Source: Saprospiraceae bacterium (GTDB lineage Bacteria; Bacteroidota; Bacteroidia; Chitinophagales; Saprospiraceae). From it: 64,000 nucleotides of DNA. Below are positions 12,751 to 64,000 of the stretch, piece after piece. The notes beneath the pieces were generated by a model that saw only the letters and a program-made list of their open reading frames with translations, had not been told where the DNA came from and made no database searches. Location of the stretch: NCBI GenBank assembly GCA_022844565.1, contig JALHLK010000003.1, positions 186,001 to 250,000 of the forward strand, written 5' to 3'. Positions within the stretch are counted from its first letter, which is position 1. Each line of letters begins with the position of its first letter. The translations under genes and the position numbers were made by a program.

Positions 12751-13177
12751 GGGGAGTTCTAAAAACTCAATTTCCATTGCAAAAAATTTATCACGTTGTG
12801 AATACTTCGTGACTGCAAAACTCAATTACTGCGTTAAAAGTTAAAAAGTGTCCTCGATGGATTATAGCTGCTATAAATATTCTCTATGCTAGTCCAGCGG
12901 GAACGAAATAAGATAACATAGAAAACTTGATCTTATTTTCAATATCTGTGTTAAAAATCCTCGCCATAGTAGCCGTACTATAACTGCGGTTTTTGCCTTG
13001 GTCTTGAAAATAATATACTTCGTTTTATGATGTATTTATTTTGTTCCCGTTACACTAGTGCACGGAGGCCCTAGTGCAGAGCTAAAATCGTTTGCGGCGA
13101 TTTTGTTTTGCTCTTCATGACTTGATCTTGGCTTTTTCATATTTTTTCACTACGAAAATGAGATTTTAGAACTCCCC
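12751..13177. repeat. Hairpin element copy A (outer), TIR GGGGAGTTCTAAAA...TTTTAGAACTCCCC, interrupted by a nested element
   Basis: Shares ends and internal core with 44197-44375; flanked by TAAT on both sides (12747-12750, 13178-13181). Confidence 0.8.
12889..13058. repeat. Hairpin element nested inside copy A, TIR CTAGTCCAGCGGGAACGAAATAA / CTAGTGTAACGGGAACAAAATAA
   Basis: Imperfect ~23-bp terminal inverted repeat read directly; internal core CTGTGTTAAAAATCCTCGCCATAGTAGCCGTACTATAACTGCGGTTTTTGCCTTG. Confidence 0.7.
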
Positions 13178-42992: not shown

Positions 42993-44078
42993 TTACAATT
43001 CTGGTTTCAACAAATGTACCTTTTCTTCTAAAGTCCTAGTTACCGCTTCTATCACCAAAAGATAAAATGCCTCGGGCTCTCCATTAATTTGTACAGATTC
43101 AAGCGCTTTGAAATAGCGAAGTCGTGTCGTTTGATCTCCTTTTAATATAGCCATAGGGTAGCCATGCATTAACAAAATCAGATTCATCACCAATCTGCTC
43201 GAGCGACCATTGCCATCAATGAAAGGATGTATCGTGACCAATCGCTCATGCATCTCCGCGGCAAGTAAGACTGGATGAAGGGACTTATGCATAGCTTTGT
43301 AAAAATCAAAGTATTCTTCCATCAGCTTTGTAATAAGGTATGGCTCAGGTGGAATGTGCTCTGCACCCAAGATTCGAACATTGACATTCCTATATTTTCC
43401 GGCATTCGCACGATTAATACCTCTTAGTATAAGCCCATGAAATTGTAAGAGCACATATTCAGAAAAGTCAATTTTGCGGTCAACAAAATCATATAAAAGT
43501 TCGATAGCCTCACTGTGGTTGATGGCTTCTAAATGCTCATTGACAGATTTTCCACTAATAGTAATACCTTCTTTAATGACCATCATTGTCTCACTCAAAG
43601 TTAATGTATTACCTTCGATTTTATTTGATTCGTAGGTGAAGCGAAGGGCAAAATGTTCCTCTACTTTTTGTAAATGTATACTTTTTTCGACCTTTATATT
43701 TTGAAGCTCCCTTTTTAATTCATCAACTCTTTCTAATGCTACTTTGATATCAGGTGTTACTTGTATTTGGTCAACAATTTTTTTGTTTGCCAAATATGCT
43801 ATTCTTGGCTCAGCTGCCATGAATGCTTCAAATCCATACGGCTCATTGGCCAAAATCTCATATACTTTCTCGACAAGCTGGTATTTTTTTAGCTCATTGT
43901 AGGGTATTTCAAAACATTTGGCCAAAGATATGATTTGATCATCTGTAGGAATCCTACTGCCATTTTCAAACTTGCTTATTAATGCTTGATCTATACCTGT
44001 CATAGCGACTACTTCGCGCATTTTTAAGTCTTGCTCAACTCGTTTGTTCTTGAGGTATGTGTGTAATGGTATTTTCAT
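42993..44078 (-). CDS. Fic family protein with N-terminal XRE-type HTH
   Basis: HTH: MREVVAMTGIDQALISKFENGSRIPTDDQIISLAKCFEI; Fic motif HPFIDGNGRSSRL; upstream SNKIEG fits the (S/T)xxxE(G/N) inhibitory motif. Confidence 0.93.
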   Translation of the reverse strand: MKIPLHTYLKNKRVEQDLKMREVVAMTGIDQALISKFENGSRIPTDDQIISLAKCFEIPYNELKKYQLVEKVYEILANEPYGFEAFMAAEPRIAYLANKKIVDQIQVTPDIKVALERVDELKRELQNIKVEKSIHLQKVEEHFALRFTYESNKIEGNTLTLSETMMVIKEGITISGKSVNEHLEAINHSEAIELLYDFVDRKIDFSEYVLLQFHGLILRGINRANAGKYRNVNVRILGAEHIPPEPYLITKLMEEYFDFYKAMHKSLHPVLLAAEMHERLVTIHPFIDGNGRSSRLVMNLILLMHGYPMAILKGDQTTRLRYFKALESVQINGEPEAFYLLVIEAVTRTLEEKVHLLKPEL

Positions 44079-44196
44079 TCCACAAAGATACAATATCTTT
44101 AAATGTCATGACAAAAAACGTCATATTTTTATTTTAAATAAATTTTGACATAAATTATCATAGGGATTATCTAGTTTTGTTCTTATTTTATATTTA

Positions 44197-44375
44197 GGGG
44201 AGTTCTAAAAACTCTATTTCTATTACAAAAAACTGCAAAACCCAATTACTGCGTTAAAAGTTAAAAAGTGTCCTCGATGTAGCTCTGGCTACACCTGCGG
44301 TACTTTTCAACTTTTGCCTTGTTCTTGGCTTTTTCGTATTTTTTTCACTACGAAAATGAGATTTTAGAACTCCCC
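44197..44375. repeat. Hairpin element copy B, uninterrupted; TIR GGGGAGTTCTAAAA...TTTTAGAACTCCCC
   Basis: Perfect 14-bp TIR, core shared with 12751-13177, flanked by TTTA on both sides. Confidence 0.85.
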
Positions 44376-44399
44376 TTTAATTTTAAAGTTTTGATAAAG

Positions 44400-45023
44400 A
44401 TGCTAAAGACATTAAGCTTTATATTTATTTTTTTAAATTCTATTTCTTGTGGCGAAAATGGGAATAAAGTTACTCAACCTATTGCAAGCACTAAAGACCC
44501 AGTATCATTGGCTAATGATACGGAAAGTGGAAAAGAAGATATCTCTGAAATGGGAATCTTAAAAGAAGTAGAAGATTCTGGGTATCCATTTGCAACACTT
44601 ACGATTGAGTTTCCAGAACGTAACTTTACAGAGTATTTTACTATAAATATGGAGGAGGTAAAAAATGCTTCTATCACTCAATTAAATAGCTATGTTAATC
44701 GTTATGTTAAATTTACATATACTACTGAAATTTCATATGCTTTGTTGGATATGTATCATGAAGGCAAGTCCATTTTTGGAGCTGAAGTAAGCCCAGAAGG
44801 TGAAAGTATAAAATCAATAGAAGGTGTATTATACGGAGCCGAACAAGTAACAGATGGGGACATTCCTGGTGAGGTTAGTGTATTTGCAGATGATGGTGAG
44901 AACTTATACTTTCAGTTTTTTGTCACTCAGGAAATGGTAAATGTAAATGAGAAAAGGGTTGCTGCCTTTTATGAAAGAAGAACAATGAATACGATCACAT
45001 CAATAAAAATGTTAAAAAAATAA
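44400..45023 (+). CDS. Hypothetical lipoprotein
   Basis: MLKTLSFIFIFLNSISCGENG lipobox; the longer ORF start at 44319 lies inside the repeat and is probably wrong. Confidence 0.7.
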   Translation: MLKTLSFIFIFLNSISCGENGNKVTQPIASTKDPVSLANDTESGKEDISEMGILKEVEDSGYPFATLTIEFPERNFTEYFTINMEEVKNASITQLNSYVNRYVKFTYTTEISYALLDMYHEGKSIFGAEVSPEGESIKSIEGVLYGAEQVTDGDIPGEVSVFADDGENLYFQFFVTQEMVNVNEKRVAAFYERRTMNTITSIKMLKK

Positions 45024-49070: not shown

Positions 49071-49202
49071 GCTAGTAGCGTTAAAGATGAAAATTTCTTT
49101 GGAAGTAAAGATATTAACTAATTGTTTACTCCGTAACATTTTCAATACTTAAGTGAAATATTTTCATTTATGACTTTGTGAAAATTTAAATATTTATATT
49201 TC

Positions 49203-49364
49203 TAGTGCTCCGACTAATTAAAGATCTAAATTATAATGGCAGTAGTTTTTACAAATATCAAGACAAAAATTAGAAGCATAGCAGCGGCACGCTGAGAATT
49301 TTTAACGCAGAGATTTGGAAAAAGAACAACATTTAATTAGTTTCTTTAATTGGACGGAGCACTA
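49203..49364. repeat. Hairpin element, TIR TAGTGCTCCGACTAATTAAAGA / TAGTGCTCCGTCCAATTAAAGA
   Basis: 22-bp TIR with 3 mismatches; reverse strand carries core CTGCGTTAAAAATTCTCAGCGTGCCGCTGCTATGC...TTTTTGTCTTG. Confidence 0.75.
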
Positions 49365-57821: not shown

Positions 57822-57925
57822 TTATTAGGATAAAGATTTAGTTCTTATTTAATACTTGATAACAAAGATAGTTTAATTAGGTTTTATCTCTTTTATTTTT
57901 GATAATTTTAGTTAAAATTAGATTG

Positions 57926-58102
57926 AACCCAGATTACGCATTAGAAATTAACTGCAAGAAAATTATGCTTCATATTAGTTTCAGTACTCAATTTTCCGTC
58001 CTCAATGCAGTTAAGGCTGCATCTGCGGATTAAAATTTCCGTGCTTCACTACTATTTTGCCTAATTTCCTTTCGAATAAAGTCCAATGCGTAATCTGGGT
58101 TT
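57926..58102. repeat. Hairpin element, TIR AACCCAGATTACGCATT
   Basis: Ends AACCCAGATTACGCATTAGAA ... TCCAATGCGTAATCTGGGTT; core CCGTCCTCAATGCAGTTAAGGCTGCATCTGCGGATTAAAA...TTTTGCCTAAT. Confidence 0.8.
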
Positions 58103-58397
58103 AAATACTTCAATTTGATGGTTCTACTACGATTTTAATCGATAATGGCAAAAAAGCCATTAGCTCTAAAAAAAATGGTCCTACCCTTAAAATTATTCAA
58201 AAGGATTATGAAAAAAGTTTTATATCTTGAACCCTAATTTCTGATCTTCCCGTCTAATTTGCATTAGAACCAATTTTATTAAACTTTTATTGACAATTTT
58301 ATAAATATGCAAATAAAAGAACCATTCATTTAGATTATGGAGATTTGCAATTTACCTTTATGATTTAATTAATATTAGGAAGTATAGTAAATATCTT

Positions 58398-63792: not shown

Positions 63793-63824
63793 GTGTGATT
63801 TTTTACCTTTGATGTTGTACCTAT

Positions 63825-63972
63825 AAATCTAAAATGGATTTCCTATTACAGCCCAAAATTACTGCAAAATCAGCACTTTTTGCTTCGTACCATAGCAGCG
63901 GCTATGATTTGTTGCAATAAATCCTGATTTTATTGTACTTTTGACCTTCACTACGGAACCCATTTTAGATTT
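63825..63972. repeat. Hairpin element, TIR AAATCTAAAATGG
   Basis: Ends AAATCTAAAATGGATTTCC ... GGAACCCATTTTAGATTT; internal ACCATAGCAGCGGCTATG stem-loop. Confidence 0.75.
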
Positions 63973-64000
63973 TTAGATTATAGAAAATAATAATATGAGT

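Follow-up and report, generated by a model that had tools for sequence, protein, structure and literature searches.

MITEs that prokaryotes derive from insertion sequences (IS) are short and non-coding, carry terminal inverted repeats (TIRs), duplicate their target, lie at AT-rich intergenic sites, fold as stem-loops, and are moved in trans (PMC10969869). The element at positions 44197–44375 of the window, i.e., the whole stretch of 64,000 nucleotides analysed here, shares with these IS-derived MITEs (PMC10969869) its size class, TIRs, target duplication, type of site, and fold, and presumably its mobilisation in trans as well. In contrast, the usual MITE is an internal deletion of one IS, whereas the interior of this element does not come from an IS and one core extends across many TIR types and phyla.

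Parts of the element resemble described families. The genome paper of Geobacter metallireducens reports 24 "predicted short RNA elements" that have the central palindrome GRCGTAGCGCTGCTACGCC, a family that occurs also in other Geobacter and in Desulfotalea (PMC2700814). This palindrome closely resembles the head hairpin of the window element; however, the accessible portion treats the family as predicted RNAs and makes no mention of transposability or of links to other phyla (PMC2700814). Geobacter and other delta copies of the core carry CGACGTAGCnnnGGCTACGCC. A second likeness is to Rfam RF02228 (sX9, a Xanthomonas sRNA), whose consensus AUGUACCACUCGUACACUCCGGUUCCUCCGCGCCGUCCG aligns with the + strand of the 3′ half of the core in related elements; these relatives score 25.7–28.2 bits, below the sX9 gathering score of 44. 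On the window, Rfam returned only meaningless plant miRNA scores and no sX9 match to the element. The Geobacter "short RNA" family is probably a part of this system seen before, and sX9 perhaps another. A literature search for the sequences returned the Geobacter paper alone, besides short chance strings, and found no paper joining the Geobacter RNAs or sX9 to MITEs, within a coverage that included few subscription papers.

Integron attC sites carry integrase core sites, recombine as single strands, and produce no target duplication; REP/RAYT elements have a GTAG-type foot and a tyrosine transposase, again with no target duplication. The 4-bp target duplications of the present element argue against both classes. 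The BoxC or triplex motif of E. coli is likewise a short palindromic intergenic repeat, but its consensus, CCCTCNCCC...GGGNGAGGG, is unrelated and absent from 44197–44375 (PMC4666352).

The element, its copies, and its mobility

An earlier note, made from the sequence alone, had described a perfect 14-bp TIR with TTTA on both sides, and the sequence bears this out; it placed the element correctly, but gave about 180 or 181 bp for a true size of 179 bp. The left TTTA of the 4-bp target duplication (44193–44196) is followed by the left TIR, GGGGAGTTCTAAAA, on the + strand (44197–44210), and by the left arm (44211–44271, +) with the conserved TATTTCTATTACAAAAAACTGC and the CTGCGTT of the distal internal loop. 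The head, composed of CCTC, the hairpin TGTAGC/TCTG/GCTACA, and CTGCGG (44272–44300, +), was recognised from the cross-phylum pattern and alignments. The right arm with GCCTTG and TTTTTCACTACGAAAA (44301–44361, +) was delimited, like the left, from the alignment of copies and from cross-phylum copies, and the element closes with the perfect 14-bp right TIR, TTTTAGAACTCCCC, on the − strand (44362–44375), beyond which lies the right TTTA (44376–44379). Covariance models R1 and R2 detected the conserved core at 44242–44329 on the + strand, with 76 and 84 bits, respectively.

The hairpin proposed in the earlier note is present at 44278–44293. The arms extend the pairing imperfectly, as an inverted repeat of 45 nt with 73% complementarity, and the folded strand reaches −60 kcal/mol versus −30.6 ± 3.6 kcal/mol for 200 shuffles (z = −8.3; 0/200 as good). 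No gene-like ORF lies within the element, as had been observed, and one mechanical ORF (44319–45023, TTG start) runs over its right end. One neighbouring gene, on the minus strand (42993–44093), has HTH_3 and Fic domains; it is only 55–56% identical within the genus and has different neighbours there. The other, on the plus strand, has no Pfam match and probably starts at ATG 44400, 25 bp past the element. DNA similarity searches found the window element absent from plasmid records.

BLAST of the element against its own genome, proposed earlier as a check, returned 85 matches. The description of the element as the only uninterrupted copy of its TIR type in the window is right as worded, since the copy at 12751–13177, whose TIRs are the same and likewise perfect, is broken by a nested element; beyond the window, the GGGGAGTTCTAAAA type is far from unique in the genome. 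At least 23 copies could be delimited with both ends, and exact 4-bp direct repeats (TTTA, TTAT, ATAA, CTAA, TAAT, or ATGA) flank 10 of the 23, a number that would not be expected by chance; other copies differ by one base. The copy G000:C4:151487-151705 is inserted within a TAGTGCTCCGTC-type element, and its flanks, joined with a single copy of the 4-bp repeat, align without gaps to uninserted paralogs, including window positions 49191–49364. This is a paralogous empty site for the inserted copy and not for the one at 44197–44375. The window family was found in none of five same-genus genomes at E ≤ 0.001, and relatives of it occur in one other genome of the same bacterial family.

The family targets AT-rich sites, where its insertion duplicates 4 bp; it is present in many copies and codes for nothing. 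Its mobility is well supported, and by its ends and behaviour the element is an ordinary MITE: short, non-coding, terminated by inverted repeats, dispersed in multiple copies, and provided with a target-site duplication and, for another copy, an empty site. The non-autonomous, MITE-like nature suggested in the earlier note agrees with the 23 two-ended copies, their 4-bp repeats, the empty site (at one copy), the non-coding interior, and the absence from the five same-genus genomes. In a copy of the window family near the end of another contig of the genome (L047, 1501–1643; end of G000:C15), the first 27 bp are followed by an interruption, GTGTGCCATGC..., that resembles a group II intron at its 5′ end, and the contig runs out at this point.

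Distribution of the core

The core consists of CCTC–hairpin–CTGCGG together with the distal GCGTT/GCCTTG loops, and elements that differ in their terminal repeats carry it. Within the window, it is present under three end types. Besides 44197–44375, it occurs in an element with AACCCAGATTACGCATT ends (57923–58104, +; R1 49 bits at 57970–58058) and in the nested element with GGGAACGAAATAA ends (12899–13048, +; R1 33 bits at 12939–13014). The latter interrupts the second GGGGAGTTCTAAAA-type copy (12751–13177, +), which has a TAAT duplication and an alternative head cassette. The genome as a whole yielded 44 core matches at E < 1e-3.

Sampling of 248 genomes from the phylum revealed the core in 41 at E ≤ 0.001, most of them from one family, f37, which we take to be the Chlorobiaceae. 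A search with the head pattern identified at least 109 contigs from many phyla, mostly metagenome-assembled genomes (MAGs), assigned to Saprospirales, Desulfobacterales, Desulfarculaceae, Geobacter, Planctomycetota, Acidobacteria, Nitrospirae, Uhrbacteria, Lysobacterales, and others. Beyond the phylum, core-bearing groups comprise Desulfobacterota, Planctomycetota, Acidobacteriota, Nitrospirota, and gammaproteobacterial and CPR MAGs. Most of these cross-phylum copies came from an exact-pattern search in which part of the helix is preset, and MAG contigs can be misbinned, so a single record is no proof of presence in a phylum. The copies inspected lie within long quasi-palindromes whose ends vary by lineage (GAGTCCACTCCGAAAACCC, GAGCCTATCCGAATAACCC, TAGCCCGGATATTTCATGA). 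In several Desulfobacterales and Nitrospirae contigs (L108, L129, L131, L093, L195), core units follow one another head to tail every ~135–150 bp.

BLAST with an f37 element also gave matches in E. coli, Klebsiella, and Salmonella records. An E. coli copy occurs in 5,403 of the 5,426 complete genomes of this species, at a median of 5 places per genome, and no annotation underlies the E. coli copies among the matches listed; in MG1655, one copy lies between ycbX and rlmKL. Model R2 confirmed four copies (E = 4.5e-7 to 1.6e-3) and found no match in ~57 kb of other K-12 sequence. R2 was built with f37 copies included and R1 missed the E. coli copies, so the link to E. coli runs through the f37 elements. 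These dispersed, palindromic enterobacterial repeats of ~140–145 bp share the core and have ends (GAGCCTATCC) like those of planctomycete elements; unlike the window element, they have another TIR and a rewritten helix. A 145-bp copy on enterobacterial plasmids is flanked by TTA, and the same place is empty in one related plasmid, which constitutes an orthologous empty site. The core is apparently present in repeats of nearly every E. coli genome. In E. coli, these may be the RSA repeats, which are 152 bp long.

The centre of 44197–44375 is one instance of a structured core found under unrelated-looking terminal repeats in many phyla, and it is this interior, common to many phyla under different ends, that makes the element unusual. 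The conserved internal structure suspected earlier finds support, over a range far wider than had been guessed, with the same core across phyla and covariation in its stem.

Ends, fold, and competing explanations

The f37 genomes contain elements of 1277, 1290, and 1303 bp that share 15-bp ends (GGGCAYCTCTAAAAA and close variants) with 142-bp MITEs of the same genomes. The intact element tested encodes an IS5-family transposase (NF033581, 288 bits against a cutoff of 140; PF01609 DDE_Tnp_1 and PF05598 DUF772). Models R1 and R2 found no core in three autonomous f37 IS loci, so the ends alone are common to IS and MITE, and their sharing points to mobilisation in trans. This IS5 link rests on another bacterial family and concerns the ends of the f37 relatives, not the GGGGAGTTCTAAAA ends. 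The genome of the window, a draft assembly of 102 contigs, contained no gene of the two types searched, DDE_Tnp_1 and DDE_Tnp_4, so its mobiliser is absent, lost, or of another type. No autonomous GGGGAGTTCTAAAA-ended copy was encountered either, as no pair of ends spaced 0.5–3.2 kb occurred at the loci examined and no TIR pair in small contigs. An autonomous partner with the same ends is usual for a MITE but not strictly defining, and partners can be lost.

The stem of the core covaries. Alignment A2 comprises 72 matches; its named pairs are standard in 85.5% of cells versus 66.7% after shuffling, and 182 cells carry double changes versus 56 shuffled and 43–81 in slid controls. Changes on both sides affect 15 of 17 pairs, with a covariation score of 0.394 versus 0.155 shuffled and 0.062–0.146 in slid controls; because the model itself served to build the covariation alignments, these lean toward the structure. 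The window family alone has 10 pairs changed on both sides. CCTC and CTSCGG are kept while the helix between them is rewritten, giving TGTAGC, TGCAG, and GTAC types.

Taken together, we consider it likely that 44197–44375 is a non-autonomous, fully palindromic MITE, moved in trans, with a core kept for its fold. The 14–15 bp at its ends could be all that a resident DDE transposase needs, of IS5 type where a partner was found; if these suffice, the element would be moved in trans. The ends would drift or be exchanged to match local insertion sequences, leaving the core as the inherited part. What is kept may be a folding need, namely a hairpin with the asymmetric internal loops CCTC/CTGCGG and GCGTT/GCCTTG in a one-strand nucleic acid. 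We weakly prefer a DNA-level role, in which a hairpin or cruciform would aid the persistence or movement of the element; an RNA copy comes a close second. A caveat is that compensatory changes could partly stem from template switching in palindromes.

The core could instead be an RNA module under RNA-level selection, its transcript hairpin binding a widespread RNA-binding protein or acting as an sRNA, which we regard as possible but somewhat improbable. The alignment of sX9 with the + strand of the core 3′ half (28 bits) speaks for it, although sX9 scores under its gathering score, as does the designation of the Geobacter GRCGTAGCGCTGCTACGCC family as predicted short RNA elements (PMC2700814). 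Pair R46.U68 is G.U in 98 and A-U in 28 of 129 cells on the + strand, though at a position fixed by the search patterns. Mismatches in the helix show no + strand G.U excess: G.T versus A.C on the core strand, counted only at pairs that are for the most part Watson-Crick, is 2:7 in the window family, 7:14 in A2, and 22:24 in A3. This strand test, without a G.T skew to the core strand, does not support RNA selection on that strand, although such selection may still act. Predicted RNA folds do differ by strand, yet the minus strand is the more stable in 38 of 41 representatives, which favours the strand opposite to sX9 and is probably due largely to its purine-rich loops. Conservation of the stem might also be mutational, with template switching in the quasi-palindrome transferring changes between the arms, and the core no more than an old passenger of successful MITEs. 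The arms do change in blocks among copies (AAAACCC/GGCTTTT versus AATGGCA/ACCATTT), but template switching should perfect the palindrome, and the asymmetric CCTC/CTGCGG loops are kept in 42 of 42 aligned A1 sequences, partly imposed by the search pattern, and survive rewriting of the helix from GTAGC to GTAC; we judge this explanation unlikely. Least credible by far is an immobile chromosomal terminator or regulatory hairpin, as might be imagined from a position between divergent genes and 25 bp ahead of a likely start codon; copy number, target duplications, nested insertions, the empty site, and the absence in the genus all contradict it.

The interior of a bacterial MITE is usually regarded as meaningless and the element itself as a decayed insertion sequence; in the present case, no part is more conserved than the interior. 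We tentatively propose, as a serious possibility, that a cross-phylum superfamily of palindromic repeats, those of nearly every E. coli among them, inherits one ancient module: a hairpin whose two asymmetric internal loops are conserved in sequence. This module would be the true unit of inheritance, would ride different IS by taking on their ends, and would need its fold for its own success. Such a superfamily would unite the predicted short RNAs of Geobacter, perhaps sX9 of Xanthomonas, and the dispersed repeats of E. coli, and would open the function of the core to tests in E. coli K-12.

Head cassettes and other elements

Copies with GGGGAGTTCTAAAA ends come in three arrangements: 177–179 bp with the head of 44197–44375, 216–240 bp with another structured head, and longer copies with nested insertions. 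The second head occurs in the TAGTGCTCCGTC family too, so the pairing of heads with ends is not fixed. This structured head (GGCACGGAGGCCACAGTTC..AAAATCGTTTGCGACGATTT), which may contain a pseudoknot, is common to two MITE families with different ends, in the genome of the window and in L214, L216, L198, and others.

Window positions 49203–49364 are occupied by a MITE of a different family, with TAGTGCTCCGTC ends and a related interior (CTGCGTTAAAAATTCTCAGCGT...); the alternative head cassette is found in at least 14 of its relatives elsewhere in the genome. A 156-bp quasi-palindrome at 63821–63976, with ends AAATCTAAAATGG, has a core-like interior (CTTCGTACCATAGC..GCTATG) that models R1 and R2 missed. 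At two other loci (L012 and L252), elements ending in AACCC...GGGTT lie inside other MITEs at TTAA, with TTAA flanking both sides.
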